A stretch of DNA of 64,000 nucleotides from Halomonas sp. KG2 (GTDB taxonomy: Bacteria; Pseudomonadota; Gammaproteobacteria; Pseudomonadales; Halomonadaceae), in assembly GCA_030440445.1 (NCBI GenBank), contig CP098528.1:3410001-3474000 (forward strand), written 5' to 3'. The notes below the pieces were generated by a model. It did not search any database and was not told where the DNA came from. It worked only from the letters and a program-made list of their open reading frames with translations. Each line of letters starts with the position of its first letter. Positions within the stretch are counted from its first letter, which is position 1. Of the stretch, positions 17,737 to 32,521 are shown piece by piece. A program made the position numbers and the translations under genes.

Positions 17737-18717
17737 TTACTCGATCCAGCCCTGCTCTCGGTAGTAACGAGCGGCACCTTCATGCAGTGGCGCCGATAGA
17801 CCAGAGGTCACCATGTCTTGGGGATCGAGGTTCTCGAAGGCCGGGTGCAGGCGCTTAAAGCGATCGAAGTTATCGAATACCGCCTTAACGGTCTGGTAGA
17901 TGATGTCTTCGTCGGTTTCCGCAGTGGTCACGAAGGTTGCTGCGACGCCGAAAGTTTCGACGTCTTCGTCATTACCTTTGTACAATCCACCTGGAATGAC
18001 CGACATGGAGTAGTACGGGAACTCGTCAACAATGCCCTGAACTGTCTCATCGTTGAGAGGCACCAGACGCGAATCAACGGTGGTGGTCGCTTCCTGGATG
18101 GCTCCATTGGGGTGACCCACGACATAGGCCATCGCGTCGATGTTGTTGTCAGCAAGCGCGGCAGCCATTTCGGCGGCATCGAGTTGAGACGCTAACGAGA
18201 AAGAGTCCTCGGTCCAGCCTTTGGCGCCCATCACCACTTCCATGGTGTTGCGCTGCCCAGAGCCTGGGTTGCCGATATTGACGCGCTTACCTTCCAAGTC
18301 ATCAAGGGAATTAATGTCAGCATCAGCGCGAGCCAGGATAGTCAGCGGCTCACCGTGAACGCGGAACACCGCGCGCAGGTCTTCATAGGCCTCACCTTCA
18401 AAATTCCCAGTACCATTGTAAGCTTGATACTGAACATCCGACTGAGCGACACCCATGTCCAATTCGCCGGACTTGATACCGTTGATGTTGGCCACGGAGC
18501 CACCAGTGGAAGGTGCATTACATTTGATATCTGCGTCTTCCAAACGGTTCACCAATCGACAAATCGACTGACCAACTACGTAGTACACACCTGTTTGGCC
18601 ACCGGTACCGATAGTGATGAAGCGTTCCTGTGCAACCGCCGGTGATGCAAACGTAGCGGCCGCAATCAGCGCGCCAGAGAAGGCGGCAGTGGAAAATACA
18701 TGGCGTTTCATGGACAC
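17737..18717 (-). CDS. TAXI-family TRAP solute-binding protein
   Basis: A 326-residue periplasmic binding protein with a signal peptide (MSMKRHVFSTAAFSGALIAAATFASPAVAQ). The family signature ITIGTGGQTGVYYVVGQSICRLVN sits directly after the signal. Further TAXI features are CNAPSTGGSVANINGIKSGELDMGVAQSDV and LEGKRVNIGNPGSGQRNTME. It delivers its ligand to the fused permease encoded next on the same strand, from which it is separated by a strong hairpin. Ligands of characterised family members include glutamate and other organic acids; the ligand here is unknown. Confidence 0.9.
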   Translation of the reverse strand: MSMKRHVFSTAAFSGALIAAATFASPAVAQERFITIGTGGQTGVYYVVGQSICRLVNRLEDADIKCNAPSTGGSVANINGIKSGELDMGVAQSDVQYQAYNGTGNFEGEAYEDLRAVFRVHGEPLTILARADADINSLDDLEGKRVNIGNPGSGQRNTMEVVMGAKGWTEDSFSLASQLDAAEMAAALADNNIDAMAYVVGHPNGAIQEATTTVDSRLVPLNDETVQGIVDEFPYYSMSVIPGGLYKGNDEDVETFGVAATFVTTAETDEDIIYQTVKAVFDNFDRFKRLHPAFENLDPQDMVTSGLSAPLHEGAARYYREQGWIE

Positions 18718-19138: not shown

Positions 19139-20440
19139 TTAGACGTTATAACCAAGTACAGATGGCAACCACAGCGCAATACTTGAAAAAATGGCCACAA
19201 GAGCAAGCGCACATCCCATCGCCACAACAAATAGCAACGCCCACCCCAAAGTCTCTTCCAAACGGATTTTGGCAACCTCTGTGGTTACCATTAAATTCAC
19301 CGCAACCGGCGGGGTAAATTGACCAATAGCAATGTTCATGGCTAGCAGAATGCCGAACCAAACGGGGTTCCATTCAAAGTGCTGCATAACGGGTATCAGC
19401 ACCGGCATCATGATGAGATAGATAGAAATAGCGTCAAGCAGCATACCAGCGACCAATACCGCTAGCATGACCAGCACCAACAGCAAAATACCGTTGTCTG
19501 TTAAGCCAATAATCCACTCTGCCAAATGGCGGAAAGTCCCCAGCATTGTTCCGGCCCAAGCAAAAATACCCGCTAGAGCGATAATCAACATCACCACTCC
19601 AGAAATAATCGCAGCCTCTCCTAGCAATTCCCATAAGTCACGTAACGAAAGCTCTTTCGTCAAAAACAGCCCCACAATGGTGCCATAGGCAACCGCTACG
19701 ACGGCGGCTTCTGTCGGGGTAAATAAGCCTGAGCGCAGCCCCCCTAAAATGAGCACTGGAGCAAATAAAGCAGGCAACGCCTGCCTAAACGTCGTACGCA
19801 CGGTCAGGGTTTCAGCGCCTGCTGCCGGTGCTCCTTCCCAGCCGTAACGCTTAGCAACGATCATCGCAGGCACCAGCAGCGCTAGCCCTGCCAAAATGCC
19901 GGGAAAAAGTCCTGCGGCAAATAGCGCGCGCAGATCAACACCGGGCACAACAATCGAGTAAAGAATTAGCGCCACGGAAGGAGGGATTAAGATAGCGGTG
20001 GATGCCGATGCTGCAATAAGGGTTGCGGAAAATGGCTTTGGATAGCCCGCTTTTGTCATGCTTGGCAGCATTACCATGGCCACTGCCGCCGCATCCGCCG
20101 GGCCCGAGCCACTCATGCCACCCATAATCATGCACACCAGCACCGCGACCAACGCCAGGCCGCCATGACGAGGCCCAATAAGTGCCTGAGCAAAGCGCAC
20201 CAAGCGTAACGCCACACCAGAGCGCTCAAAAATCAGCCCTGTCAGTATGAATAGCGGTATCGCGATTAAAGGATACTTGGCAATGCTGTTATAGGTATTG
20301 GTACCCAGCGTTGCCAACATATCTGGCGAAAGCCCAGCCACAATACCCACCGAGCCAGCTAGCGCGAGCGAAAATGCCACGGGCACACCCGCTATCAAAA
20401 ATCCGGCAAAGGCAAGAATCATCCAAATATCAGGCGTCAT
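19139..20440 (-). CDS. dctM: TRAP transporter large permease subunit DctM
   Basis: The 433 residues have the standard length for DctM. Motifs include GVPVAFSLALAGSVGI near the N-terminus, GGMSGSGPADAAAVAMVMLPSMTKAGYP, ASASTAILIPPSVALILYSIV, and LFTPTEAAVVAVAYG. About 12 membrane helices are expected. It overlaps the DctQ gene by 11 bases and completes a DctPQM operon. It would catalyse sodium-coupled uptake of the ligand captured by the DctP protein. The closely placed LacI-type regulator upstream hints at a sugar or sugar-acid ligand, but that is inference. Confidence 0.9.
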   Translation of the reverse strand: MTPDIWMILAFAGFLIAGVPVAFSLALAGSVGIVAGLSPDMLATLGTNTYNSIAKYPLIAIPLFILTGLIFERSGVALRLVRFAQALIGPRHGGLALVAVLVCMIMGGMSGSGPADAAAVAMVMLPSMTKAGYPKPFSATLIAASASTAILIPPSVALILYSIVVPGVDLRALFAAGLFPGILAGLALLVPAMIVAKRYGWEGAPAAGAETLTVRTTFRQALPALFAPVLILGGLRSGLFTPTEAAVVAVAYGTIVGLFLTKELSLRDLWELLGEAAIISGVVMLIIALAGIFAWAGTMLGTFRHLAEWIIGLTDNGILLLVLVMLAVLVAGMLLDAISIYLIMMPVLIPVMQHFEWNPVWFGILLAMNIAIGQFTPPVAVNLMVTTEVAKIRLEETLGWALLFVVAMGCALALVAIFSSIALWLPSVLGYNV

Positions 20441-20909
20441 TATCCAGCCCTCCGTTTAATCGATCTCGGGTTTGCTGAACGAGACGCCATACCATGGCAA
20501 AGGATAATATCGGAAGCCACACTAAGTACCACCACTGGGGCAGCCCTAACCCCGGCGATAGCGATTCCCATTGGTACTCTTGCCAGGCTAGCTTTCCACC
20601 ATACCAAGTGATCAAGCCCAGAACGACTAACCCGCACAAAGCTTGAAATAGAATAAGGGCGCTGCGCCAGCGCCCTGGTAACGCCCGTTCTAAAAAACCA
20701 ATACGAATATGGCGGTTTCGCCTAAGCGCCACCGATGCCCCTGCGAAGGTAAGCACCACCAGCAAAAATACGGAAAATTCTTCGGTAAACGAGAATGAGC
20801 CGCCAGTCAGGTAACGTGTGACCACATTTCCCAGACTAATCAACGAAATAATAATAAGTGACAGCGCGCCCAACCAGCGTTCAGGGCGTGCATCGGGAAA
20901 GCCTTTCAT
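20430..20909 (-). CDS. dctQ: TRAP transporter small permease subunit DctQ
   Basis: A 159-residue four-helix membrane protein. SFTEEFSVFLLVVLTFAGASVALRRNRHIRIGFL is the typical DctQ signature of the second helix and following loop. It overlaps dctM by 11 bases, implying coupled translation. A hairpin with a six-T tract lies between it and dctP. Confidence 0.88.
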   Translation of the reverse strand: MKGFPDARPERWLGALSLIIISLISLGNVVTRYLTGGSFSFTEEFSVFLLVVLTFAGASVALRRNRHIRIGFLERALPGRWRSALILFQALCGLVVLGLITWYGGKLAWQEYQWESLSPGLGLPQWWYLVWLPILSFAMVWRLVQQTRDRLNGGLDNDA

Positions 20910-20925
20910 GGCAGCCTCATAACAG

Positions 20926-20954
20926 AAAAAACTACCGGCCCTGTAGGCCGGCAG
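20926..20954 (-). terminator. Attenuator-like hairpin between dctP and dctQ
   Basis: The arms CTACCGGCC and GGCCGGCAG pair with one mismatch and read on the minus strand into TTTTTTCTG. It lies within the operon just after the DctP stop. It probably terminates part of the transcripts and keeps binding-protein levels above permease levels. Confidence 0.75.
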
Positions 20955-20974
20955 TTATAACACCAAAGGAGTCA

Positions 20975-21985
20975 TTAACGTGCGTCGATAGCCGACCGAG
21001 CCGCGTTAACCACGTCTTCACCAATGCGCGGCGCCCATTTTTCGTAAACGGACTGCGTGGCTTCAACAAAGGCTTGGTACTGTTCATCGGTTAACTCAGT
21101 AACCGTAACACCACGCTCTTGAATAGCCGCCAGACGCTCGCTTTCTTCCTCACGCGTCATAGCGATTTCCCACTCCCCCGCTTCAATGGCAGTTTCACGC
21201 AACAGCACTTGCTGTTCTTCATCAAGCGATTGCCATACCTGCTGGTTAACCGCAAAAATTAGCGGGTCATTCATGTAGTTCCAGAGCGTTAAGTGCTCCT
21301 GGCCCACCTGATCAATACGCGCGACATCAAATACTGAAAGCGGATTTTCCTGCCCGTCAACCGCGCCAGTGGTTAACGCTGGCTGAGCATCTGTCCAACT
21401 CATTTGCGTCGGATCTGCGTTAAGGGCAGAGAAGGTATCCTGGAACAGCGGTGAGCCAACCACGCGGATTTTCAGACCATCCAAATCCTCTGGCTGGCTA
21501 ATCGGCCCACGGGAGTTTGACACTTGGCGGAAGCCATTTTCGCCCCAGGCCAGCGGCATAACACCGCGAGACTCAATCGCTGCAAAGACCAGCTCACCGG
21601 CTTCGCCGCCAGTAACCGCATCCACAGCAGCCTCATCGGGAATAAAGAATGGTAAAGAGAATAAATTCAGTTCAGGAACCTGAGGCGACCAGTTAATCGT
21701 CGAGCCTACCGCAGCATCAATTAGCCCCGAACGCATGGCCGAAAACTCACGAGTTTGGTCACCGGAAACCAACTGAGAGTTCGGGTAAACCCGCAGCGTT
21801 AGTTCTCCACCACTGCGCTCTTCCACCAACTCCGCCCACTTTTCCGCCGCTTGCCCCCACGGGAAAGCATCAGATAAAACAGTGGAAACAGAGAGTTCAC
21901 GTGCTTGTGCAGAGAAAGAAGCCGAGAGTAAGGCCGCACCAGCTAAACCTACCGTTAAACGAGCCATAGAGCGTGTCAGCGTCAT
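20975..21985 (-). CDS. dctP: TRAP transporter solute-binding protein DctP
   Basis: A 336-residue periplasmic protein. The signal peptide is MTLTRSMARLTVGLAGAALLSASFSAQA. Then comes a DctP-type body with the strongly conserved DLDGLKIRVVGSPLFQDTFSALNADPTQMSW segment holding the carboxylate-binding Arg, and the TGAVDGQENPLSVF block. This family generally binds organic acids through that Arg: dicarboxylates, sugar acids or uronates. It lies 125 bases downstream of a LacI-type repressor gene on the same strand and could share its transcript, though no copy of the repressor palindrome is seen directly in front of it. Confidence 0.9.
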   Translation of the reverse strand: MTLTRSMARLTVGLAGAALLSASFSAQARELSVSTVLSDAFPWGQAAEKWAELVEERSGGELTLRVYPNSQLVSGDQTREFSAMRSGLIDAAVGSTINWSPQVPELNLFSLPFFIPDEAAVDAVTGGEAGELVFAAIESRGVMPLAWGENGFRQVSNSRGPISQPEDLDGLKIRVVGSPLFQDTFSALNADPTQMSWTDAQPALTTGAVDGQENPLSVFDVARIDQVGQEHLTLWNYMNDPLIFAVNQQVWQSLDEEQQVLLRETAIEAGEWEIAMTREEESERLAAIQERGVTVTELTDEQYQAFVEATQSVYEKWAPRIGEDVVNAARSAIDAR

Positions 21986-22110: not shown

Positions 22111-23109
22111 CTAAGGTAAGCATTCTGCCGTACTTTTCCTTGATACCAGGGTGTAGGGCAAAACTAAATTGTCTACCTGCCTCCCTTCCAGCACCTCGAT
22201 CAACATCGCAACTGCTTCACGTCCGAACGCTTCCGCTGGTTGGGCAATCGTGGTCAAGGGAGGATCGCTATAGGAAGCAAACGCAATATCATCAAAACCT
22301 GTCACCGAAATATCCTTTGGAATCTGTAGGCCCGCTTCTTTGATACGGCTTATAGCACCTATGGCCATTTCATCGCTTTCACAAAAAATGGCGGAGGGGC
22401 GCTCCGCTAAAGCAATAAGCGTTTCAGCCGCCTGATAGCCAGAAAGTGGCGTGAAATCGCCAGGACAAAGTAGGCTCTCATCTAACGGAATGCCCGCCGC
22501 GATCAACGCATCCTGGTAGCCTTGTTGACGGTCACGGGTCAAGGGGCTGCGCCGAGGCCCTTTAATCATGCCGATTCGACGATGCCCCAGGGAGATCAAG
22601 TGCTCGGTGGCCTCACGGGCTGCCGCTCGGTTATCGAGTTTGACGGTGGGACAGGGAGCATCGTCCAGCACCTCGCAGGCATTGATCATGGGCAATACCG
22701 CACCAGCGGGAAACGCCTTTTCAGAAAAAGGGTTAAAAGCACGCAGTTGAATCACGCCATCTGCCTGGCGGGTACTGACTAAACTGGCGTATTGGATTTC
22801 CATCGCCTCATTACCGAGTGTATTACACAGCAGAACGCCGTAGCCGCGTTCCTGGGCCGCTTCCTGAATGCCGCTGATTACCCGCGCAAAGAAGGTATTT
22901 GCGATAGTGGGTACTAAAACCACCAAGTTATAAGTGCGCTGTGAGCGAAACTGAACCGCCATCAAATTGGGTTTGTAGCCCGCTTGATCAACGGCCTTCA
23001 GCACTTTTTCTCGGGTGGTAGGCGAGACGATATCTGGCGACTTTAACGCGCGTGATACGGTCGCGACCGACACCCCCGCCAACTCGGCGACCTTACGTAT
23101 ATTGGTCAT
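22111..23109 (-). CDS. LacI-family transcriptional regulator of the sugar locus
   Basis: ATG 23109 follows AAGGGAGG and gives 332 residues. The DNA-binding head is canonical (TNIRKVAELAGVSVATVSRALKSPDIVSPTTREKVLKAVDQAGYKPN), followed by a periplasmic-binding-like effector domain from about 60 (VVLVPTIANTFFARVISGIQEAAQ, GHRRIGMIKGP, SVTGFDDIAFASYSDPPLTTI). It is divergent from a Gfo/Idh/MocA oxidoreductase gene. An 18-bp perfect palindrome of LacI type lies in the shared promoter, and a near-identical palindrome lies 9 kb away, ahead of the leftward arm of the locus. It is therefore the likely repressor of both arms and of itself. The inducer is unknown, probably a sugar or keto-sugar. Confidence 0.9.
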   Translation of the reverse strand: MTNIRKVAELAGVSVATVSRALKSPDIVSPTTREKVLKAVDQAGYKPNLMAVQFRSQRTYNLVVLVPTIANTFFARVISGIQEAAQERGYGVLLCNTLGNEAMEIQYASLVSTRQADGVIQLRAFNPFSEKAFPAGAVLPMINACEVLDDAPCPTVKLDNRAAAREATEHLISLGHRRIGMIKGPRRSPLTRDRQQGYQDALIAAGIPLDESLLCPGDFTPLSGYQAAETLIALAERPSAIFCESDEMAIGAISRIKEAGLQIPKDISVTGFDDIAFASYSDPPLTTIAQPAEAFGREAVAMLIEVLEGRQVDNLVLPYTLVSRKSTAECLP

Positions 23110-23282: not shown

Positions 23283-23300
23283 AATGTAACCGGTTACATT
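23283..23300. promoter_or_regulatory. LacI-type operator, copy 1 (perfect palindrome)
   Basis: AATGTAACCGGTTACATT is an 18-bp perfect palindrome with the central CG typical of LacI/GalR operators. It lies between the divergent regulator gene and the oxidoreductase gene, so it can control both. A second copy differing at one central base occurs at 32259-32276. Confidence 0.85.
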
Positions 23301-23313
23301 GTCGACTGCACTA

Positions 23314-23385
23314 GCGCAACCTGAACAAGCGCCACCTGAACAAGCGCCACCTGAACAAGCGCCACCTGAACAAGCGCCACCTGAA
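23314..23385 (+). repeat. 15-bp tandem repeat in the leader of the oxidoreductase operon
   Basis: Four exact copies of CAAGCGCCACCTGAA occupy 23326-23385, preceded by a degenerate partial copy (GCGCAACCTGAA, 23314-23325). The array lies between the LacI operator and the ATG at 23420, so it is probably in the 5' untranslated leader. It would read as PEQAP units from a TTG at 23299, but that frame overlaps the real gene and has no ribosome site. Confidence 0.92.
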
Positions 23386-23419: not shown

Positions 23420-24598
23420 ATGCCGCGACCCAATCAACCCCGCATCCGCTTAGGCATGATCGGCGGCGGACAAGGGGCGTTTATCGGTCAAGTTCACCGC
23501 CTAGCTGCTCGCCTCGACGACACCTGCGAGCTGGTATGTGGTGCCTTTAGCCGCTCGGCGGATAACAACCAGATGACCGGCGAAGCGTGCCACCTACCCG
23601 AAGAACGTGTTTACGCTGACTGGCAGCAATTACTGGAAAGCGAGCAGCAACTTCCCGCCGAACAGCGCATGCAGTTATTGGTGATCGTAACGCCTAACCA
23701 TCTTCACGTACCGATCGCGGAAGCGGCCATGCAGGCAGGCTTTCATGTGTTCTGTGAAAAACCGGCAGCAGTATCGCTCCAAGAAGCCCAGCGCTTAGCA
23801 GAAAGCTGGCATGCCAGCGGCTGCCTGTATGGCTTGGCGCATACCTACTTAGGCTACCCCATGGTATGGCAAGCCCGGGAAATGGTGAGCGAGGGCCAAA
23901 TAGGTAGCATTCGCAAAATTCATGTGGAGTATCCCCAGGGCTGGCTAGGCGAGTGTTTAGAGCAGCAGGGTAATAAGCAGGCCGCGTGGCGCACCGACCC
24001 TTCCCTAGCAGGTATCAGCGGCTGCATGGCCGACATTGGCACCCACGCTTTCGGCCTCGCCGAGTTTATTTCCGGGCATCGTGTTAGCCAGCTATGCGCC
24101 TCACTTGCCAGCCACGCCGATGGCCGCCAACTGGACGATGACGGCGATGTGCTGCTGCGCACCGATCAAGGCGCCAGCGGCACCCTCATCGCCAGCCAAG
24201 TCTGCAGCGGGGAAGAAAACGCGCTCAAAATTCGTATTTACGGTGATAAAGGGGCGCTTGAGTGGCACCAAATGGAGCCCAACAGCCTGCTCTACCGCCC
24301 ACTTCAAGCACCGATGCGCACCCTCCGTGCGGGCATCGACCAACCCGACCTTTCCCCCAGCGCGCTGCAGCGCTTGCGCCTGCCCGGCGGTCACCCTGAG
24401 GGGTATCTGGAAGCACTCGGCAACCTTTACCGCGACTTTGCCCACGCCATTCATCAAGGCGAGCAAGGCGACGTTGAGGGCGTTCCCGGCATGGCCTCCG
24501 GGCTACGTGGCATGGCGTTTATCGAGGCCGTCACCACCAGCGCCAAAAGCGAACAAAAATGGACGCCACTGCCTGCTACTCAGCTACCAGGAGCCTAA
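23420..24598 (+). CDS. Gfo/Idh/MocA-family NAD(P)-dependent oxidoreductase
   Basis: A 392-residue protein. The N-terminal Rossmann motif is RLGMIGGGQGAFIGQVH; the family signature VFCEKPAAVS lies near residue 115, followed by the C-terminal substrate domain with a GCMADIGTHAFGLAEF active-site helix. Members oxidise or reduce sugar rings, including glucoside 3-dehydrogenases and 3-keto-sugar reductases. Here it is the first gene of the arm controlled by LacI operator copy 1 and could reduce an imported 3-keto sugar in the cytoplasm. CAGGAG precedes ATG 23420. The next gene starts two bases after its stop. Confidence 0.87.
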   Translation: MPRPNQPRIRLGMIGGGQGAFIGQVHRLAARLDDTCELVCGAFSRSADNNQMTGEACHLPEERVYADWQQLLESEQQLPAEQRMQLLVIVTPNHLHVPIAEAAMQAGFHVFCEKPAAVSLQEAQRLAESWHASGCLYGLAHTYLGYPMVWQAREMVSEGQIGSIRKIHVEYPQGWLGECLEQQGNKQAAWRTDPSLAGISGCMADIGTHAFGLAEFISGHRVSQLCASLASHADGRQLDDDGDVLLRTDQGASGTLIASQVCSGEENALKIRIYGDKGALEWHQMEPNSLLYRPLQAPMRTLRAGIDQPDLSPSALQRLRLPGGHPEGYLEALGNLYRDFAHAIHQGEQGDVEGVPGMASGLRGMAFIEAVTTSAKSEQKWTPLPATQLPGA

Positions 24599-24600
24599 TC

Positions 24601-25677
24601 ATGCCAAACACTCACAAAGGCATCCGCGGGCCCGCCATTTTCCTGGCCCAGTTTATCGGCGACGAGGCGCCTTTCGATAGCCTCGACGCAATCGCTCGCT
24701 GGGCAGCCGAACAGGGCTATCAAGCCATTCAGCTACCCACTGTAGATAGTCGTTTTATCGACTTGCACAAGGCCGCTGAAAGCCAAGCTTACTGCGATGA
24801 GCTAAACGCCCGCTGTGAAAAGGCTGGCGTTGTGATCGGCGAACTCTCTACCCACTTACAGGGCCAACTGGTCGCCGTGCATCCCGCTTGCGACGACTTA
24901 TTCGATGATTTCGCGCCTGTTGAGCTACACGGCAAGCCGCAAGAGCGTACCGAGTGGGCCATTGAGCAGCTAAAACTGGCTGCCAAAGCCAGCCAACGGC
25001 TTGGCTTAACGGCCCACGCGACGTTCTCCGGGGCGCTGCTATGGCCCTTTGTTTACCCCTGGCCCCAACGTCCTGATGGGCTAGTCGAAGAAGGTTTTAA
25101 CGAGCTGGCCCGGCGGTGGCGGCCAATTCTGGATGCCTTTGACGAGGCAGGCGTTGACCTGTGCTTTGAAATTCACCCTGGCGAGGATCTTCACGACGGC
25201 GCGTCCTTCGAGCGGTTCCTGGCGGCAGTGGACAACCATCCACGGGCGAAAATTCTTTATGACCCCAGCCACTTACTGCTGCAGCAGTTGGATTATCTCG
25301 AGTTTATCGACCGCTACCACGAGCGTATCGGCATGTTTCACGTTAAAGACGCTGAATTTAACCCCAATGGCCGCAGCGGCGTTTATGGCGGTTACCAAGG
25401 CTGGGTAGAACGACCCGGCCGCTTCCGTTCATTAGGCGATGGGCAGATTGATTTCAACGGGATTTTTAGCCGCCTGACGCAGTACGGATTTGATGGCTGG
25501 GCGGTGCTTGAGTGGGAGTGCTGCATTAAAGACGCCGCCCAGGGTGCTGCAGAGGGCGCTCCCTTTATCGAGGCACATCTGATTCAACCCGCCGGTCGCG
25601 CTTTTGATGATTTTGCCGGTGTCACCGCCAGCCCTTCACGCAACCGCCGAATTCTTGGCCTTCCTTCACACCGCTAA
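24601..25677 (+). CDS. Cytoplasmic sugar isomerase/epimerase, xylose-isomerase-like TIM barrel
   Basis: ATG 24601 with CAGGAG upstream gives 358 residues. The pattern of metal ligands of AP-endonuclease-2-type barrels is visible in order: Glu in CFEIHPGED, Asp and His in LYDPSHLLLQQ, His in GMFHVKDAEF, Glu in VLEWEC. No signal peptide is present. The GSGV/YQGWVERPGRFRSLGDGQIDF loop is common in members that travel with Gfo/Idh/MocA oxidoreductases. Some such barrels epimerise or eliminate 3-keto glycosides. The exact reaction cannot be read from sequence. Confidence 0.83.
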   Translation: MPNTHKGIRGPAIFLAQFIGDEAPFDSLDAIARWAAEQGYQAIQLPTVDSRFIDLHKAAESQAYCDELNARCEKAGVVIGELSTHLQGQLVAVHPACDDLFDDFAPVELHGKPQERTEWAIEQLKLAAKASQRLGLTAHATFSGALLWPFVYPWPQRPDGLVEEGFNELARRWRPILDAFDEAGVDLCFEIHPGEDLHDGASFERFLAAVDNHPRAKILYDPSHLLLQQLDYLEFIDRYHERIGMFHVKDAEFNPNGRSGVYGGYQGWVERPGRFRSLGDGQIDFNGIFSRLTQYGFDGWAVLEWECCIKDAAQGAAEGAPFIEAHLIQPAGRAFDDFAGVTASPSRNRRILGLPSHR

Positions 25678-25737
25678 TTGACGGTTTTAAATCAAGACAG
25701 CAATCACCAACACACAACCACAACAAAGGATCACGTC

Positions 25738-26964
25738 ATGGCTATGATACGCACACGACTCAGCATCATGATGTTTTTGCAGTTCTTTATTTGGGGCGGC
25801 TGGTTTGTCACCCTGGGCACCTTCCTGGCCAACAACCTCAACGCCAGCGGTGGCCAGATTGGCATGGCATTCTCCACCCAGTCCTGGGGAGCGATTATTG
25901 CCCCTTTCATTATTGGCTTGATCGCTGACCGTTATTTCAACGCCGAGCGCATTCTCGGTGTTCTGCACTTGGCGGGCGCTGCGTTAATGTACGGCCTGTA
26001 TGTCGCCAGCGACTTCAGTACGTTTTACCCGTTGGTGTTGATGTATATGATTATTTATATGCCGACACTGGCGCTGGTTAACTCAGTCTCCTTCCGCCAA
26101 ATGAGCGACCCAGGCCAGGAGTTCGCTAAAATCCGCGTATGGGGAACCATTGGCTGGATTATCGCCGGTCTGGGGATCAGCTACTTATTCGCCTGGGACT
26201 CTTCGCAAGGCATCGCCGACGGTATGCTGCGTAACACCTTCTTGATGTGCGCCATCGCGTCTTTAGCCCTTGGCCTGTATAGCTTTAGCCTTCCCGCGAC
26301 GCCGCCTAAAGCAGACGGCCCGGTGGGCTTAAAAGAAGTGCTAGGGCTAGATGCGCTGGCCCTGCTAAAAGACCGCAACTACGCCATCTTCTTTATCGCC
26401 TCTATTCTGATTTGTATTCCGCTGGCGTTTTATTACCAAAACGCCAACCCCTTCCTCGCCGAGATCGGCGTGACCAATCCAACTGGTAAAATGACCCTGG
26501 GTCAGGTATCAGAAGTGCTATTTATGCTGCTGCTACCGGTCTTTATTCACCGCTTTGGTATCAAGAAAACCTTGCTAATCGGCATGCTCGCCTGGGCGTT
26601 GCGCTACGCGCTGTTTGCGTTCGGTAACGCCGATGAAATGGTGTTTATGCTCTTGATCGGTATTGCATTGCATGGCGTGTGCTACGACTTCTTCTTCGTG
26701 ACCGGCCAAATCTACACCGATGCCCGTGCGGGGGAGAAATTCAAAAGCTCTGCCCAGGGCATGATCACACTGGCCACTTACGGGGTAGGCATGCTGATAG
26801 GCTTCTGGGTCGCGGGTCAGATTACCGATCACTTCTCCACCAACGGCGCGCACGACTGGCAAGGCATCTGGATGTTCCCAGCCGTATTTGCTATCGCGGT
26901 GCTGGTGTTGTTCTACCTCACCTTTAAAAACGACAAAAGCGTAACGGCTAAGCCTAACGTGTAA
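25738..26964 (+). CDS. MFS transporter of the nucleoside:H+ symporter family (sugar-locus member)
   Basis: ATG 25738 follows AAAGGA and gives 408 residues with 12 membrane helices. The start MIRTRLSIMMFLQFFIWGGWFVTLGTFL and the internal KIRVWGTIGWIIAGL block are characteristic of the NupG/XapB-like nucleoside:H+ symporter family. In many bacteria, relatives of this carrier sit with Gfo/Idh/MocA oxidoreductases, TIM-barrel isomerases and DUF1080 genes, not with nucleoside genes. A modified sugar is therefore a better guess for the substrate here. A terminator follows directly. Confidence 0.82.
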   Translation: MAMIRTRLSIMMFLQFFIWGGWFVTLGTFLANNLNASGGQIGMAFSTQSWGAIIAPFIIGLIADRYFNAERILGVLHLAGAALMYGLYVASDFSTFYPLVLMYMIIYMPTLALVNSVSFRQMSDPGQEFAKIRVWGTIGWIIAGLGISYLFAWDSSQGIADGMLRNTFLMCAIASLALGLYSFSLPATPPKADGPVGLKEVLGLDALALLKDRNYAIFFIASILICIPLAFYYQNANPFLAEIGVTNPTGKMTLGQVSEVLFMLLLPVFIHRFGIKKTLLIGMLAWALRYALFAFGNADEMVFMLLIGIALHGVCYDFFFVTGQIYTDARAGEKFKSSAQGMITLATYGVGMLIGFWVAGQITDHFSTNGAHDWQGIWMFPAVFAIAVLVLFYLTFKNDKSVTAKPNV

Positions 26965-26983
26965 GGATATAGAGGATAAAAAC

Positions 26984-27015
26984 AGCCGGGTGCTTTGAGA
27001 GCGCCCGGCTTTTTG
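26984..27015 (+). terminator. Terminator of the rightward sugar operon
   Basis: AGCCGGGTGCT pairs with AGCGCCCGGCT (one G-T pair), and the stem is followed by TTTTTG. It lies 19 bases after the MFS stop. Confidence 0.9.
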
Positions 27016-27095
27016 CTCTCTAAACACAACGATCGAGTGTGATGGTGTGAATAGGTAAATCCCAAGTATTGCCAACTAACACCCACTCCAAAAAT

Positions 27096-27139
27096 GTAAA
27101 AGCCCAGCCTCACTGCTATTTAGCATCAAGACTGGGCTT
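27096..27139 (-). terminator. Terminator of the leftward sugar operon
   Basis: AAGCCCAG and CTGGGCTT form the outer stem, and a nested GCTA/TAGC forms an inner one. On the minus strand it reads into TTTTACATTTTTGG. It follows the DUF1080 gene and faces the terminator of the rightward arm. Confidence 0.75.
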
Positions 27140-27168
27140 GCTCACCTTGGGTGTTTATAGGTGCCTGT

Positions 27169-27972
27169 CTATAGCTCTCTTACCCAAACGTTTCGAAAGC
27201 TGACGTCCGCATCGTGATCTTGCAGGTAAATGGGGGCGCAGCCGTGGGCTTCTTCGTAATTGGGTTCGCCAATCCACTCGGTGGTGCCTTGCACTTCAGC
27301 ATGGTGCTGGACCACGACACCGTTATGCAGCACGGTGATGTAGGCAGGCGATTCAAGGGCGCCTTCACCATTAAAACGCGGTGCAGTGTAGAGGATATTA
27401 TAGCTCTGCCACTCACCGGGCGGGCGCGATGCATTGACGAGTGGGATATGCTGTTTATAGATGGAAGCCGCCTGGCCGTTGGGATAGGTCGGGTTATCGT
27501 AGGAATCCAGCACCTGAACTTCATAACGCTCCTGCAGGAAGACGCCGCTATTGCCACGATCTTGGCCATCCATGCCATCGATATCGGCCGGTGATCGCCA
27601 CTCCAAGTAGAGCTGCACGTCGCAGAAATCCTGACGTGTACGTATACCGCCCGCGCCGCGATTCACCGTCATGGCGCCGTCTTCCACGTGCCATTCAGCC
27701 TGCCCGCCCTCTTCGGCCTCCCACGCGCCTAAGTCGGTTCCATCGAATAGCACGATGGCATCGGAGGGAACGCCTGTATCAGGCACTGAAACCGAAAGGG
27801 GCACAGGCTCCCAGACTTCAGTTTTGGCGGATTGCTGTTCGGGTGTCAGCGCCTCGTTCGAGGCGCTTTCCTGTGCCACGCTGTCGAATGCCAGCAGACT
27901 GCCGCAGGTCAATAGGCAAAGTGTCTGAGCACAGGAACGCAACTTTAGTCCATGTATGTGTTGAGTCGTCAT
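27169..27972 (-). CDS. Exported DUF1080 protein (3-keto-disaccharide hydrolase family)
   Basis: ATG 27972 behind GGAAAGGAAAG gives 267 residues. A Sec-type signal (LKLRSCAQTLCLLTCGSLLAFDSVAQ) precedes the mature domain. The family pattern is clear: AIVLFDGTDLGAWE, WHVEDGAMTVNRGAGGIRTRQDFCDVQLYLEWRSP, RGNSGVFLQERYEVQVLDSYDN, PLVNASRPPGEWQSYNILY, GCAPIYLQDHDADVSFRNVWVREL. This concanavalin-like domain is annotated in Pfam as 3-keto-disaccharide hydrolase. It is the last gene of the leftward arm and would cleave oxidised glycosides in the periplasm. It starts a few bases past the upstream small-subunit stop, so translation is probably coupled. Confidence 0.87.
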   Translation of the reverse strand: MTTQHIHGLKLRSCAQTLCLLTCGSLLAFDSVAQESASNEALTPEQQSAKTEVWEPVPLSVSVPDTGVPSDAIVLFDGTDLGAWEAEEGGQAEWHVEDGAMTVNRGAGGIRTRQDFCDVQLYLEWRSPADIDGMDGQDRGNSGVFLQERYEVQVLDSYDNPTYPNGQAASIYKQHIPLVNASRPPGEWQSYNILYTAPRFNGEGALESPAYITVLHNGVVVQHHAEVQGTTEWIGEPNYEEAHGCAPIYLQDHDADVSFRNVWVREL

Positions 27973-27989
27973 AGATGCTTTCCTTTCCA

Positions 27990-28649
27990 TTATGTGGCCC
28001 ATGCAGGTTCGCCGTTGTATGGTGCGCAGCCCTCGTAGCGGCCTGGCACCGCTTCGTAACGCAAGACTTCCGTCGCGCCAACTTCTGAGGTGAAGAAGCC
28101 GAACAGCGTTAACTGCTTCATCATAGTGAAGTAGTGTGGAAGCGCTTCATCGCTATCCGCGTGCTCCTGTGATGACTGGGTTTCCGCCGTTTGATTTTGC
28201 GCGGTCTGGGTCTCTGCAGTCAGTGCTTCAGCAGGGGTTGGCTGCTCTCTGCTAGCATGTTGCTGGGCGTGCGCCATCGCTTCGCGATCTAACTCGGTTA
28301 TAAGCGCTAATCGCTGTTCGCCACTTAACGCCATAAAATCGCGCTGATAGGCCGCTCGGCTACGCGCCTCAAGCTGGGCTAAACCAAAATAAAACACCTC
28401 TCTTTCTGAGGGCGTATAGCAGTCGCTAACGAACAGGGCCATAAACTCCCCGACACCAGCATCTTTGGCGCCTGGGGTATCGGTTCTGGGCAGAATGGTT
28501 TCGGCAAGTTCGTCCAGTCGCTCTACATCGCGGCTGCTAAAGGGATGGTTTGACTGGCCAGCATCGCTAAAGGCAAATAGGGATTTACCTCCAATCATCG
28601 CGGTACCGGTCGTCAGGGCGATCATTTTGAGTAATTCGCGACGATTCAT
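27990..28649 (-). CDS. Gluconate 2-dehydrogenase subunit 3-like small subunit with Tat signal
   Basis: ATG 28649 overlaps the stop of the GMC gene in an ATGA junction and gives 219 residues. The start is a Tat-type signal: NRRELLKMIALTTG with twin Arg and a following hydrophobic stretch. The body matches the subunit-3 family (LAETILPRTDTPGAKDAGVGEFMALFVSDCYTPSE, GFFTSEVGATEVLRYEAVPGRYEGC). A low-complexity Gln/Thr/Glu/Ala insert occupies about residues 128-165. In related dehydrogenases this subunit carries the signal and takes the flavoprotein across the membrane with it. The large subunit here has no signal of its own, consistent with that role. Confidence 0.87.
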   Translation of the reverse strand: MNRRELLKMIALTTGTAMIGGKSLFAFSDAGQSNHPFSSRDVERLDELAETILPRTDTPGAKDAGVGEFMALFVSDCYTPSEREVFYFGLAQLEARSRAAYQRDFMALSGEQRLALITELDREAMAHAQQHASREQPTPAEALTAETQTAQNQTAETQSSQEHADSDEALPHYFTMMKQLTLFGFFTSEVGATEVLRYEAVPGRYEGCAPYNGEPAWAT

Positions 28650-30340
28650 GACAAATTCCCCCGCTTGAGCTCTTCCACGGCATAGTCCACCGCCCGAGCG
28701 GTAAGCGCCATATAGGTCAGAGAAGGGTTCACGCAAGAGGATGACGTCATGCAGGCGCCATCGGTAACGAAAACGTTGGGCGCATCCCATACTTGGTTAT
28801 GGCTATTGAGCACTGAGGTTTTCGGGTCACGGCCCATACGCGCGGTGCCCATTTCATGGATCCCCATGCCCGGCGCGTAATCACCTACGTCGCCTTTGAC
28901 GTTCTTCACGCCAGCGGCCTCAAGTAAGTCAACCGCATCTTGAACCATGTCCCGACGCATATTGCGCTCGTTTTGCTTGAGCTCAACGTCGATCGATAGC
29001 ACCGGCAGTCCCCATTTATCGCGAACGCTGTGGTCAAGAGAGATGCGGTTATCGTGATCGGGCAGCATTTCGCCGAAGCCTGTCATACCGATCGTCCAAC
29101 CGCCTGGCTGGCTAAGTGCTTGCTTTAAATCAGTGCCGATATTGAGCTCAGCAATTTCGCGGTCCCAGCCCTCGCGGCTCGCCGCTCCTTGATAACCAAA
29201 CCCGCGCACGTAGCTTCGCTGCTCATCGCCTACGTTGCGAAAGCGCGGAATGTAAAAGCCCGCAGGACGACGTCCGAAGTAGTATTTGTCGAGATAGCCT
29301 TCCACTTCGCCACTGGCACCGCAGCGGAAGTGGTGATCCATCACGTTGTGACCCAGTTCGCCACTGCTACTGCCCAAGCCCCCTTCCCAGACATCGGTAG
29401 CGGAGTTCATCAAAATCCAGGTAGTGTTGAACGTAGACGCATTGAGGAAGATGACATCAGCGGTGTACTCATGGACTTCATGGGTCTCAGCGTCAATCAC
29501 CTCAACGCCCCGCGCCCGCTGGCGGTCTTTGTCATACAGCACCTGGCTGACAATCGAGAATGGCCGCAGGGTCAAGTTGCCAGTAGCCACTGCAGCCGGC
29601 AAAGTAGCTGATTGGGTACTGAAATAGGCGCCAAAAGGACAACCCAGCCAGCACTTATTGCGGTATTGGCAATTGACGCGATTTTGTTCCGGCTTTGGCT
29701 GGGTAATATTGGCGACTCGGCTGTGGATAAGATGGCGCTGCCCACCAAAGGCTTCTTTAATACGCTTGGCAGCATCTTTTTCCACACAGTTAAGCGGTAT
29801 TGGCGGCAGAAACTCGCCATCGGGAAGAATATCTAGCCCTTCCTGAGTACCTGCAATACCGGCAAAGCGCTCCACATAGTCATACCACGGGGCGATATCT
29901 TCATAGCGAATCGGCCAATCAATGGCGATGCCTTCACGCTGGTTGGCCTCGAAGTCCATAGGGCTGAGCCGATAGCTTTGCCGCCCCCAAAGCAGTGAGC
30001 GCCCCCCTACGTGATAGCCGCGAAACCAGTCAAAGCGCTTCTCTTCCACGTAGGGATTGGCCTGTTCATCCACCCACATGCCCATGGTGGCTTCGTTAAG
30101 GGGGTAGTCGCGCCTGAGCACGGGGTGTTTAGCGATCATCTCCTGGGTCGGCTCATTGCGGTGGGGATAATCCCACGCCTCTTTATGGGCATTGTGGTAA
30201 TCCTTCACGTGTTCAATGTTGCGCCCACGCTCAAGCAGTAAAACCTTCAAGCCTTTCTCTGTAAGTTCTTTAGCGGCCCAGCCGCCGCTAATGCCTGAGC
30301 CAACCACGATGGCATCGTAGTGATTATCTGGCATGGTCAT
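28646..30340 (-). CDS. GMC-family FAD dehydrogenase large subunit, glucose/glucoside 3-dehydrogenase-like
   Basis: A flavoprotein of about 560 residues. The FAD Rossmann motif AIVVGSGISGGWAAKEL sits at the N-terminus, followed by GGRSLLWGRQSYR and a Cys-rich stretch (CQYRNKCWLGCPFGAYFST) that could hold an Fe-S cluster. The C-terminal GMC domain has GIHEMGTARMG and SCVNPSLTYMALTAR. The pairing with a subunit-3 partner matches membrane-linked glucose 3-dehydrogenase of the kind characterised from a marine Halomonas, as well as gluconate 2- and fructose dehydrogenases. No cytochrome c subunit is present next to it. The true start may be the second ATG (30334), because AAGGAAG abuts the first. 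Oxidation at C3 is inferred from the DUF1080 neighbour. Confidence 0.85.
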   Translation of the reverse strand: MTMPDNHYDAIVVGSGISGGWAAKELTEKGLKVLLLERGRNIEHVKDYHNAHKEAWDYPHRNEPTQEMIAKHPVLRRDYPLNEATMGMWVDEQANPYVEEKRFDWFRGYHVGGRSLLWGRQSYRLSPMDFEANQREGIAIDWPIRYEDIAPWYDYVERFAGIAGTQEGLDILPDGEFLPPIPLNCVEKDAAKRIKEAFGGQRHLIHSRVANITQPKPEQNRVNCQYRNKCWLGCPFGAYFSTQSATLPAAVATGNLTLRPFSIVSQVLYDKDRQRARGVEVIDAETHEVHEYTADVIFLNASTFNTTWILMNSATDVWEGGLGSSSGELGHNVMDHHFRCGASGEVEGYLDKYYFGRRPAGFYIPRFRNVGDEQRSYVRGFGYQGAASREGWDREIAELNIGTDLKQALSQPGGWTIGMTGFGEMLPDHDNRISLDHSVRDKWGLPVLSIDVELKQNERNMRRDMVQDAVDLLEAAGVKNVKGDVGDYAPGMGIHEMGTARMGRDPKTSVLNSHNQVWDAPNVFVTDGACMTSSSCVNPSLTYMALTARAVDYAVEELKRGNLS

Positions 30341-30370
30341 CTTCCTTATTGTGTTGTTGTTCGCGTCGAA

Positions 30371-31270
30371 TCACACATCGCAGCGCCGAATAGCCGCTTG
30401 TAGTGATTCTATTTTTGCCTGTTGGCTAGTACGGTCAGGGAGAAATTCTTGGGCGATATAGCCCTGAAAGCCGGTATCTCGAATAGCGCGGCAAATTGCG
30501 GGGTAGTTAAGTTCTTGGGTGTCGTCTATTTCATGGCGCCCGGGCACACCGGCAGTATGGTAATGGCCGAAAAAGCGATGGTTTTCACGGATAGTGCGAA
30601 TGACATCGCCTTCACTAATCTGCATGTGATAGATGTCATAGAGCAGCTTGAAGTTGGGCGAATCGAGGCGACGGCAAAGCTCGATCCCCCATGCAGAGTT
30701 GTCGCAAAGGTAATCGGGGTGGTCGATTTTGCTGTTGAACAGCTCCATCTGTAGCACCACGCCTTTTGCCTCTGCCTGGGCAAGAATCTGCTTTAGTCCC
30801 ATTTCGGCATTTAGCAAACCCTGTTCAGGGTTCATACCTCGGGCATTGCCGCTAAAACAGATGAGATTGGTGTAACCCGCTTGGCTGACCAGATCGATAT
30901 GTTGAAGGTATCGCTCAATCAGCGCTGAGTGAAAGCGGGTATCGCCCCAGCCATCCTCAAGGCTCAACTCAGCGCCATTACACATGGAGGAGTCGAGTCC
31001 ATACCGCTGAAGCACAGGCCACTCTTCTGGCCCCACCAAATCAATCGCCGTAATGCCCAGCTCGGTTGAAAGCTGGCAAAGCTCTTCCAGAGACAGAAAA
31101 TCAAATGTCCAACGGGCGACCGAATGATGGATATTGCCTTTAAGTGCCTGCTGAGCAGGCGCATCGTCAGCTAGGGCTCGAGATCCAAGCTGAGGTAGCG
31201 CCGCCAGACCAATAGCACCGGTAACGCTATGGCGCAGCAGGCTACGCCGATCAAGAAGGTAGCGCTTCAT
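30371..31270 (-). CDS. Tat-exported TIM-barrel isomerase, hydroxypyruvate-isomerase-like
   Basis: The 299 residues begin with MKRYLLDRRSLLRHSVTGAIGLAALPQLGSRALA, a twin-arginine signal. The barrel shows the expected metal ligands in order: Glu in LQMELFNSKID, Asp/His in LLYDIYHMQIS, His in GHYHTAGVPGRHEID, Glu in GYIAQEFLP. The sequence is close to hydroxypyruvate isomerase-like proteins, but export makes a central-metabolism role unlikely. It stands between the other exported barrel and the GMC dehydrogenase in one minus-strand run, so it probably acts on the oxidised sugar in the periplasm as an epimerase, isomerase or 1,2-eliminase. Confidence 0.82.
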   Translation of the reverse strand: MKRYLLDRRSLLRHSVTGAIGLAALPQLGSRALADDAPAQQALKGNIHHSVARWTFDFLSLEELCQLSTELGITAIDLVGPEEWPVLQRYGLDSSMCNGAELSLEDGWGDTRFHSALIERYLQHIDLVSQAGYTNLICFSGNARGMNPEQGLLNAEMGLKQILAQAEAKGVVLQMELFNSKIDHPDYLCDNSAWGIELCRRLDSPNFKLLYDIYHMQISEGDVIRTIRENHRFFGHYHTAGVPGRHEIDDTQELNYPAICRAIRDTGFQGYIAQEFLPDRTSQQAKIESLQAAIRRCDV

Positions 31271-31317
31271 AAAGCATCCTCGCGTTCGTCATCTAAATGA
31301 GATGGCCTAGGCGTGCA

Positions 31318-32211
31318 TTACTCTTCTCGAAGCGCTGTCAGTTTTTCCTGCAAGAAGCTGTTGCCCTCGGTAATCACCGCTTCTGAGTCGAGTGGCATAT
31401 CGTGTTCGATGATGTACCACTCAACATCAGCGGCCTCGATGGCGGGCAAGATGGCATCCCAATCCAGTACACCTTCCCCAAGTGTGGCGAAACCGCCCTC
31501 TTCTTCAGCAGTGCCTTCTGGAGCATTATCTTTGGCGTGTACAGCAAACAGTTGCCCATCGAAACGCGAGACATACTCAACCGGGTCAAACCCACCACGC
31601 GCTACCCAGGCGATATCCAATTCCGCCAGCAGATCAGATCCAGCCGCATCAAACAGATGCTCTAACGCGGTTTTACCGTCATACTCTTCCATCTCGAAAT
31701 CATGGTTGTGGTACGCCAACCGGAAACCTTCGGCATCGAGCGTAGCGGCAATTTCACCTAACTCTTCACCCAGCGCCTGCCAGCCTTCGACATCGCTAGG
31801 CCGTGCGTCCTCGGCTAGATAAGGCACTGTTAAGGTGTCATTACCCACCGCCTGATTAAACGCCACCGTTTCATCTAAGCGATTGCGCAAATCGTCTAGC
31901 TGTACATGACTTGAGATCACCTCAAGCGCGTGCTCTTCTAACAAAGCGTTGAGTTCTTCGGCTGATACTTCCTGGGTTCCGACCGTCTCAATGGCAGAGA
32001 TTCCCGCCCGATTTACGGCGGCTAACTGCTCCTCCAAATTGCCAAAATCACGCAGCGTATACATTTGAACAGCAATGGGTAATTCTGCTGTGCTGCTTTG
32101 TTGAGCTTGAGCAACGCCAGGCATACTCAGCACTGACAGCGTCACTGCGCTAGCAGCCAGCAGAGCCTGTGGGCTCAAACGTTTTGGGCGTAGCGGGGTA
32201 TCCATATCCAC
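31318..32211 (-). CDS. Exported sugar isomerase/epimerase (TIM barrel), first gene of the leftward arm
   Basis: A 297-residue protein. Its signal (SPQALLAASAVTLSVLSMPGVAQA, Sec type) is followed by a barrel starting LPIAVQMYTLRDFG. Metal-site residues appear as Glu in YHNHDFEMEEYDG, Asp in LLAELDIAWVARGG, His in LFAVHAKDN and Glu in WYIIEHD. This matches the sugar phosphate isomerase/epimerase clan, but a periplasmic location and the neighbours argue for an unphosphorylated keto-sugar substrate. LacI operator copy 2 lies just upstream of its start. The mature protein is markedly acidic, as expected of an exported protein in a halophile. Confidence 0.83.
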   Translation of the reverse strand: MDMDTPLRPKRLSPQALLAASAVTLSVLSMPGVAQAQQSSTAELPIAVQMYTLRDFGNLEEQLAAVNRAGISAIETVGTQEVSAEELNALLEEHALEVISSHVQLDDLRNRLDETVAFNQAVGNDTLTVPYLAEDARPSDVEGWQALGEELGEIAATLDAEGFRLAYHNHDFEMEEYDGKTALEHLFDAAGSDLLAELDIAWVARGGFDPVEYVSRFDGQLFAVHAKDNAPEGTAEEEGGFATLGEGVLDWDAILPAIEAADVEWYIIEHDMPLDSEAVITEGNSFLQEKLTALREE

Positions 32212-32521
32212 CTCATTGTTGTTGGCTTGTTATGCGTTGTAAAAGTGCCGACGCCAAAAATGTAATCGGTTACATTTTTTTAGAGCATCACCGAAATATA
32301 TGCAAGAAAAGGCTGATTTATTGATCTTCGATGAGTGGATGATAACGTTATTAAAACGTCAATTCAGGAGTAAATCATTGATTATAAAGTTTTAAATATT
32401 ATTAAAAAGAAACTTTAAACTTTGGTATGACGTACTACAACAACACAGTGGAACCGTAGTGTTTTGCATTATTTTTGCAGTCACCCGAGCTGCTATAATG
32501 ACCATCTTTTTTCATCTAGCC
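32212..32521. other. Divergent promoter region between the leftward sugar operon and eamA
   Basis: About 310 bases separate these divergent genes. The left part holds LacI operator copy 2 (described separately). The rest, 32280-32460, is very AT-rich and contains no convincing hairpin or reading frame. It should contain the eamA promoter. Confidence 0.5.
32256..32279. promoter_or_regulatory. LacI-type operator, copy 2
   Basis: AAAAATGTAATCGGTTACATTTTT is a 24-base near-palindrome. Its core, ATGTAATCGGTTACAT, differs from copy 1 at one central base only. It lies 45-68 bases upstream of the first gene of the leftward arm, where a repressor would block initiation. Confidence 0.82.

Follow-up and report, generated by a model that had tools for sequence, protein, structure and literature searches.

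Glycosides can be split without hydrolysis after oxidation of the sugar ring, and the closest described system is that of Agrobacterium tumefaciens. Its GlycDH oxidises C3 of glycosides, AtOGE beta-eliminates 3-keto-O-beta-glucosides, AtHYD was assigned the hydration of the glucal on preliminary evidence and a Gfo-type protein was assigned the reduction of 3-ketoglucose (Bitter et al. 2023, PMC10628242). A comparable locus was analysed in a stretch of 64,000 nucleotides of Halomonas sp. KG2 (contig CP098528.1, positions 3,410,001 to 3,474,000), here called the window. Its nine genes encode a LacI-family regulator, a Gfo/Idh/MocA oxidoreductase (Gfo), a predicted hydratase (HYD), an MFS carrier, a DUF1080 protein, a subunit 3 of the Gluconate_2-dh3 family, a GMC flavoprotein, a xylose-isomerase-like barrel (TIM2) and a predicted O-glycoside beta-eliminase (OGE). 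They form a probably jointly regulated set that appears to oxidise and then split glycosides outside the inner membrane. Judged from gene content, homology and conservation together with site residues, operator-like sites and signal-like N-termini, the locus very probably serves the use of glycosides without hydrolysis and is controlled by one LacI-type regulator.

In the proposed scheme, which takes C3 oxidation, beta-elimination and hydration from relatives, the flavoenzyme of GMC and subunit 3 would be exported in folded form through the Tat signal of the subunit and would oxidise various glycosides in the periplasm at the C3 hydroxyl of their sugar ring. An acceptor whose gene lies elsewhere, probably a cytochrome c, would take up the electrons. 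OGE would eliminate beta-linked 3-keto-glycosides in the periplasm and DUF1080 others, probably alpha-linked. The products would be a 2-hydroxy-3-keto-glycal together with either the aglycone or the second sugar, and hydration of the glycal to the 3-keto-sugar may be a further activity of DUF1080. The MFS carrier would import the glycal, the 3-keto-sugar or both. Inside, HYD would hydrate the glycal to 3-ketoglucose, and Gfo would reduce this to glucose for the glucokinase encoded in the host genome (4.57 Mb, four contigs, 99.99% complete). No match to GH1, the one glycosidase family searched, was found in that genome. Inferred here are what the organism uses as substrates, which species is transported and by which carrier, which acceptor takes the electrons, and which protein binds the operators and responds to which inducer.

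An earlier note on the window had proposed the order of periplasmic C3 oxidation, non-glycosidase elimination, import and cytoplasmic reduction. This order is supported and matches the relatives (PMC10628242) at the identities given below. The outline of the steps stood, to which the hydration by HYD and the LacI regulator with its operators, overlooked in the note, are added. The note also mentioned a glucose 3-dehydrogenase from a marine Halomonas; such an enzyme has reportedly been described. The word 'complete' was too strong, given that the locus holds no cytochrome c, that the substrate of the carrier is a proposal and that TIM2, an exported barrel, has no assigned role.

Enzymes of the locus

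The eight genes of the earlier note were borne out in position by the open-frame list (8/8) and in family by profiles scoring above their own Pfam cut-offs. They form two converging runs, Gfo-HYD-MFS on the + strand (23420-26964) and OGE-TIM2-GMC-Sub3-DUF1080 on the - strand (32205-27169), and the LacI gene (22111-23109) points away from Gfo. For comparison, the best 80 of 167 confirmed relatives were used, picked by OGE similarity and not independent by descent. Each locus extends up to 10 kb to either side and OGE is present by construction. By record titles the 80 loci fall into four groups: 23 Halomonadaceae, 18 Rhodobacterales, 11 Rhizobiaceae and 28 Xanthomonadaceae. Gene presence counts are lower bounds, as some loci are cut by contig ends. 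At E 1e-20, GMC and subunit 3 were matched in 77 loci each, HYD in 67, DUF1080 and Gfo in 66 each, TIM2 in 57, LacI in 54 and MFS in 39. Recurring across 80 related loci, the grouping of these genes is not due to chance.

The relatives of the window are Vreelandella/Halomonas; in the locus of Vreelandella (Halomonas) titanicae BH1 (L029), the proteins are 87-99% identical to those of the window (GMC 99%). Distribution of the locus is patchy. Within the family, 11 of 121 genomes have OGE at E 1e-20, and a draw of 274 genomes of the class gave matches for TIM2, GMC and OGE in 1, 2 and 3 genomes, the matches outside the own genome being 33-47% identical. For OGE the 3 matches of the class draw were obtained at 1e-40, with 33-35% identity in the other two genomes; all these counts include the own genome. 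The host genome itself contains one match each for DUF1080 and subunit 3 and three for GMC.

The barrel at 31318-32205 is predicted to be the Mn2+ O-glycoside beta-eliminase OGE. It matches the solved protein 8bvk (E 7e-102) and is 61% identical to the OGE of A. tumefaciens B6; OGE and HYD of that strain closely match the solved proteins 8bvk and 8ro4. All eight site residues of AtOGE (Glu39, His66, His132, the catalytic His134, Glu161, Asp163, His189 and Glu233) are present in the window protein, where H168, H170, D199, H225 and E269 correspond to His132, His134, Asp163, His189 and Glu233. Among 81 aligned OGEs, the eight were found, in the above order, in 81, 81, 81, 81, 77, 81, 80 and 80 sequences; the single losses of His189 and Glu233 are gaps, and Glu161 is replaced by Gln in four. 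The earlier note had counted two exported TIM barrels; what it had missed is that one of them, by the 8bvk match and the site residues, is the eliminase.

HYD would be the cytoplasmic 2-hydroxy-3-keto-glucal hydratase, matching the entry of that title, 8ro4, with 562 bits (E 6e-168), and is 69% identical to HYD of the A. tumefaciens B6 locus (L069). GMC is 78% identical over 561 residues to the protein at L069:10909-12594. Subunit 3 begins, at its likely start 28649, with the twin-arginine sequence MNRRELLK, and no signal of its own was seen on GMC. Together, GMC and the Tat-signal subunit are predicted to form the glycoside C3-dehydrogenase: for the A. tumefaciens dehydrogenase an identity of 95.5% to GlycDH is stated, an enzyme shown by nuclear magnetic resonance (NMR) to yield the 3-ketone (PMC10628242).

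DUF1080 scored 143.4 bits against PF06439 (cut-off 26.8) and shares its fold with the 3-keto-glycoside eliminase/hydratases 8rr2/9fbe upon comparison with VIA-align; it is probably an exported 3-keto-glycoside eliminase/hydratase. Gfo, whose closest solved relative is the unnamed oxidoreductase 3v5n, is 45% identical to L069:8611-9780, which likewise adjoins HYD, and no signal was seen by eye in the loci inspected. A cytoplasmic 3-ketoglucose reductase is the probable assignment. In the 28 Xanthomonadaceae loci (among L063-L106), Gfo is 29-32% and subunit 3 45-50% identical to the window protein, compared with 55-63% for OGE, 67-70% for HYD, 57-70% for DUF1080, 58-66% for TIM2 and 75-81% for GMC. 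The Gfo reductase may have been replaced in these loci.

Compartments, import and regulation

Signal-like stretches were assigned by a hydrophobicity rule applied from the farthest start within 60 residues, which is not a dedicated signal-peptide predictor, and 30 OGE N-termini were also inspected by eye. Such a stretch precedes the OGE barrel in 75 of 76 anchorable genes from all four groups, Agrobacterium included (4 of 80 were not anchored), the lone remaining OGE scoring 1.57 at a threshold of 1.6. The same applies to DUF1080 in 56 of 57 genes (9/66 not anchored). It is missing ahead of HYD in 60 of 62 (5/67 not usable) and ahead of GMC in 73 of 73 (4/77 not usable). Both HYD exceptions arise in frames extended upstream by 33 and 40 residues, possibly through wrongly called starts. 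As OGE and DUF1080 carry signal-like N-termini and HYD mostly does not, cleavage probably takes place outside and one hydratase acts inside. With cleavage outside and HYD inside, the imported species would be the 2-hydroxy-3-keto-glycal, or the 3-keto-sugar where DUF1080 hydrates outside. An unsaturated keto-sugar may thus cross the inner membrane, and for the Rhizobiaceae loci, with no DUF1080 in view (0/11), uptake of the glycal is the simpler account. The idea that the 3-keto-glycoside is imported intact and cleaved in the cytoplasm was rejected, OGE and DUF1080 both having the look of exported proteins. The words periplasm, signal peptide and transport do not appear in the main text of the OGE paper (PMC10628242).

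The MFS gene was matched in 12/23 Halomonadaceae and 27/28 Xanthomonadaceae loci, and in none of the 18 Rhodobacterales and 11 Rhizobiaceae loci. Two of these 29 loci without it, L069 and L039, encode an ABC importer with binding protein, ATPase and permease. The predicted importer thus differs by lineage, being NupG-like MFS or ABC. The window MFS scores below the cut-off for the NupG nucleoside permease TIGR00889 (397.1 vs 446.1 bits), and we infer that it is a candidate keto-sugar importer. TRAP genes are possibly associated with the locus as well: DctP was matched in 5 of 23 Halomonadaceae loci (L034, L035, L036, L095 and L098) and in 0 of the 57 others, and a close DctP directly follows DUF1080 in L034 and L036. 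A frame of the window at 17737-18717 resembles, by eye, a TAXI-type TRAP solute-binding protein.

Two operator-like sites were located, a perfect palindrome between LacI and Gfo (site 1) and a copy with one symmetry mismatch before OGE (site 2). In the whole 4.57 Mb the pattern TGTAAYCGRTTACA was found just twice, both times at a promoter of the locus (one at 32261), and the reversed control not once. Allowing up to two mismatches, just the two sites were found in the window; shuffled sequences gave 0.39 on average and two or more in 5 of 100. In the 80 relatives, the pattern TGNAANCGNTTNCA gave 117 sites in 66 loci, against 2, 2, 6, 0, 0 and 0 for six control patterns; the loci concerned are 20/23 Halomonadaceae, 14/18 Rhodobacterales, 11/11 Rhizobiaceae and 21/28 Xanthomonadaceae. 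By hand count, 94 of the 95 sites outside the Rhizobiaceae fall between -60 and 450 bases from where a locus gene starts, and two sites stand at two gene runs in 11 Halomonadaceae, 9 Rhodobacterales and 19 Xanthomonadaceae loci. In Rhizobiaceae both sites lie together, in L069 immediately before the ABC binding-protein gene. Since operator-like sites are present at both gene runs, the periplasmic and cytoplasmic halves would constitute one regulon. LacI is the probable repressor of both operons, its role as the operator-binding protein being suggested by its position and the type of motif.

The features of the locus are listed in Table 1. Between site 1 and Gfo, relatives L017 and L029 carry about 1.5 copies (by eye) of the 15-bp tandem repeat, compared with 4.9 in the window, and the distance from site 1 to Gfo varies among relatives; the repeat may tune expression. 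A scan for terminators gave 12 sites and 11.9 in shuffled sequences, no excess overall, so that the hairpin between the operons is supported by its position and strength alone. Sigma-70-like promoters (2 sites) were fewer than in shuffled sequences (6.6). In V. titanicae BH1, a frame of 166 amino acids with a signal-like start and no Pfam match (L029 15251-15751) lies between DUF1080 and MFS.

Table 1. Genes, putative regulatory sites and neighbouring features of the locus in the window
Feature	Position	Strand	Basis and remarks
LacI-family regulator	22111..23109	-	PF00356 and Peripla_BP_3 above cut-off; likely start 23109
Operator-like site 1, perfect palindrome ATGTAACCGGTTACAT, upstream of Gfo-HYD-MFS	23284..23299	.	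Pattern search of genome
15-bp tandem repeat, 4.9 copies, 98% matches	23313..23385	+	Between operator-like site 1 and Gfo start
Gfo/Idh/MocA oxidoreductase	23420..24598	+	Pfam
HYD, xylose-isomerase-like barrel	24601..25677	+	8ro4 match; open frame from 24559, likelier start 24601
MFS carrier, Nuc_H_symport (NupG-like)	25738..26964	+	PF03825, 414 bits; frame from 25678, likelier start 25738
Terminator-like hairpin between converging operons	26984..27010	+	12 pairs, 8 G-C
DUF1080 protein, PF06439 3keto-disac_hyd, exported (predicted)	27169..28002	-	Pfam
Gluconate_2-dh3 subunit 3, twin-arginine signal	27990..28649	-	PF13618, 127 bits; frame to 28790, likelier start 28649
GMC flavoprotein, catalytic subunit	28646..30340	-	PF05199/PF00732
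TIM2, xylose-isomerase-like barrel, exported (predicted, Tat-type)	30371..31270	-	Pfam
OGE, exported Mn2+ O-glycoside beta-eliminase (predicted)	31318..32205	-	8bvk match; frame to 32211, likelier start 32205
Operator-like site 2, ATGTAATCGGTTACAT, upstream of OGE-TIM2-GMC-Sub3-DUF1080	32260..32275	.	Pattern search of genome
TRAP transporter genes DctP, middle gene, DctM	19139..21985	-	DctP and DctM above cut-off; beside LacI gene

Alternative readings and the second barrel

A number of observations weigh against the scheme proposed here. DUF1080 is 54% identical to 4qhz, titled only putative glycosyl hydrolase, and 26-29% identical to the entries titled eliminase/hydratase or hydratase, for which reason its stereopreference is not fixed by sequence; in the Rhizobiaceae loci, as fetched, DUF1080 is not in view at all (0/11). 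Gfo is the weakest of the enzyme assignments, because it is 45% identical to the Agrobacterium protein and 29-32% to those of the Xanthomonadaceae. TIM2 stands outside the four-step scheme and is not in view in 7/23 Halomonadaceae and 11/11 Rhizobiaceae loci. No operator-like site was found in 14 of the 80 loci. Price et al. propose a role in lactose use, a competing claim as to the substrate. There is no cytochrome c at the locus, CXXCH frames of more than 70 residues occurring in the window only at 17414 (a 79-residue frame) and 49406.

By a motif rule, a cytochrome c is encoded within 5 kb of the dehydrogenase in 10/10 Rhizobiaceae and 23/27 Xanthomonadaceae loci, and in 0/22 Halomonadaceae and 0/18 Rhodobacterales loci. 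The motifs were those of a broader scan, which left out 8 loci without callable GMC, found none in the 18 Halomonadaceae loci it covered and picked up a single frame in L057 (Rhodobacterales), some 5 kb away from GMC. A linked cytochrome c is thus not universal to loci of the A. tumefaciens type. The cytochrome c of L069 found no match in the host genome at 1e-3, in a search run without a positive control. Elsewhere in that genome 18 PF13442 cytochrome stretches were found, 12 of them above the cut-off. With no cytochrome c at the locus and 18 such stretches in the rest of the genome, an unlinked electron acceptor is likely, probably a cytochrome c; in Rhizobium radiobacter, CYTc serves a glucoside 3-dehydrogenase (PMC9915066).

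Three other explanations were considered. It is very improbable that the dehydrogenase is of the fructose, glucose or gluconate type and acts on another carbon, its neighbours serving another sugar-acid or inositol pathway. Fructose and glucose dehydrogenases are the best solved relatives of GMC by sequence, the barrels and Gfo weakly resemble inositol enzymes in NCBIfam and a TRAP carrier adjoins the locus, but the equivalog cut-offs for the inositol and levoglucosan families were missed by a wide margin (Gfo reached 105 of the 650 bits for levoglucosan dehydrogenase). Moreover, OGE and HYD share a regulon with GMC, which is 78% identical to an Agrobacterium protein itself 95.5% identical to the NMR-characterised, C3-oxidising GlycDH. 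On the missed cut-offs and this 78% identity, the fructose/glucose/gluconate dehydrogenase, inositol and levoglucosan readings were rejected. A variant that we hold possible, if not the one to be expected, is that only the 3-keto-sugar is imported, DUF1080 hydrating the glycal outside and HYD being spare or acting on leaked glycal. Solved relatives of DUF1080 are indeed titled eliminase/hydratase (9fbe, 8rr2) or hydratase (8tda, 8v31), and since a variant of the Bacteroides lyase is described as deficient in hydration activity, the wild-type lyase must hydrate (PMC13273386). Retention of HYD, mostly signal-less, across the four groups speaks against it, as do the Rhizobiaceae, which combine exported OGE and signal-less HYD with a DUF1080 count of 0/11 in the fetched loci.

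That the locus mainly serves lactose or galactosides seems rather doubtful. LacA-type oxidation would then give 3'-ketolactose, which DUF1080 would cleave in the periplasm into glucose and 3-ketogalactose, and the remaining genes would salvage the keto-galactose. This reading draws on fitness data for lacABC and DUF1080 of Caulobacter and for the Pedobacter dehydrogenase, and on Halomonas titanicae BH1, where LacA is near DUF1080, as in two further genomes of lactose users for which no beta-galactosidase is predicted (Price et al. 2022, PMC9007349). In BH1 the two genes lie with others of the Caulobacter cluster (PMC9007349); L029, at 87-99% identity to the window, is presumably that cluster. 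In Pedobacter, on the other hand, no DUF1080 gene with a lactose phenotype is given in PMC9007349, OGE was characterised on glucosides (PMC10628242) and the sequence reveals no substrate. The likelihoods given to these readings are not meant to add up, because the lactose and 3-keto-sugar-import variants are compatible with the main reading proposed here.

TIM2 has a conserved probable metal site and an invariant RR pair. The signal rule was passed in 36 of 52 anchored genes (5/57 not anchored), and export is proposed on the RR pair as well as on hydrophobicity. The protein is below the NCBIfam equivalog cut-offs for hydroxypyruvate isomerase (87.6 bits, cut-off 353) and 2-oxo-tetronate isomerase (90.5, cut-off 325). 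Upon comparison with the 3-keto-D-glucoside 4-epimerase YcjR of E. coli (6wn6), identity was 14% with many other isomerases tied, and in sequence TIM2 is closer to 3ngf than to YcjR (76 vs 34 bits); unlike YcjR, TIM2 is predicted to be exported. Fold comparison picked no function. In a homologue search that scored the 8000 candidates sharing most words, the proteins among the 120 matches listed carry names such as hydroxypyruvate isomerase and TIM barrel protein. Near the locus of Halomonas smyrnensis, a second barrel (L095 8-784), 32% identical to TIM2 and without evident signal, is perhaps an ordinary hydroxypyruvate-isomerase-like protein.

A more far-reaching proposal combines these points, and we regard it as unlikely in its entirety. 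Exported alpha- and beta-eliminases would make the reactive unsaturated 2-hydroxy-3-keto-glycal outside; this would cross the inner membrane through the NupG-like MFS carrier (ABC in alphaproteobacteria) and be hydrated in the cytoplasm, and Tat-exported TIM2 would be a periplasmic 3-keto-glycoside epimerase or isomerase admitting galactosides and other epimers to the glucose route. If true, this role of TIM2 would answer the fate of 3-ketogalactose, called unknown by Price et al. (PMC9007349).

Comparison with described systems

The chemistry is already known, nearly each step from Agrobacterium and gut bacteria, and the locus is a fresh example of it. Kastner et al. 2024 (Angew. Chem.) is said to concern the GlycDH-OGE-HYD-Gfo pathway of Agrobacterium, and Nasseri et al. 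2024 (Nature 631:199) reportedly deals with the Bacteroides BT2157-type system. The window dehydrogenase is a flavoprotein, unlike that of the Bacteroides system, which is a Gfo-type protein. The DUF1080 eliminase/hydratases of that type (3osd, 8rr2, 9fbe, 8tda) are 26-29% identical to window DUF1080, which is nearer to 4qhz (54%). Possibly new here are the gene assignments, the mapping of steps to compartments across four groups, the regulon with its two sites, the difference in transporters and the lack of a linked cytochrome. In the open-licence literature, no description of the compartment map, the regulon or the importer difference and no paper on the combined gene set were found. The analysis offers a concrete step for most genes whose families say merely isomerase, permease or oxidoreductase, proposes a compartment for each step and places both operons probably under one dedicated regulator. 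It sharpens three questions, namely which sugar crosses the membrane, which reaction TIM2 catalyses and what induces the regulon.

For the lacABC/DUF1080 lactose locus of Caulobacter crescentus, the substrates by fitness are lactose, raffinose and salicin (PMC9007349). LgdA/B1/B2/C of Bacillus smithii likewise perform oxidation, beta-elimination, Mn2+-stimulated hydration and reduction via glucal and 3-ketoglucose, the latter detected by its absorbance near 310 nm (PMC7676230). The first step there is catalysed by the NAD+-coupled LgdA (PMC7676230), and the window Gfo is below the cut-off of that family. Closest is the A. tumefaciens GlycDH-OGE-HYD-Gfo pathway (PMC10628242), whose four enzyme steps have counterparts here at 78, 61, 69 and 45% identity, that of Gfo being a probable one. 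Compared with A. tumefaciens, the window has DUF1080 and TIM2 in addition, an MFS carrier instead of the ABC importer and no linked cytochrome c. Both have in common the LacI neighbour, the form of the operator, the predicted export of OGE and the signal-less HYD.

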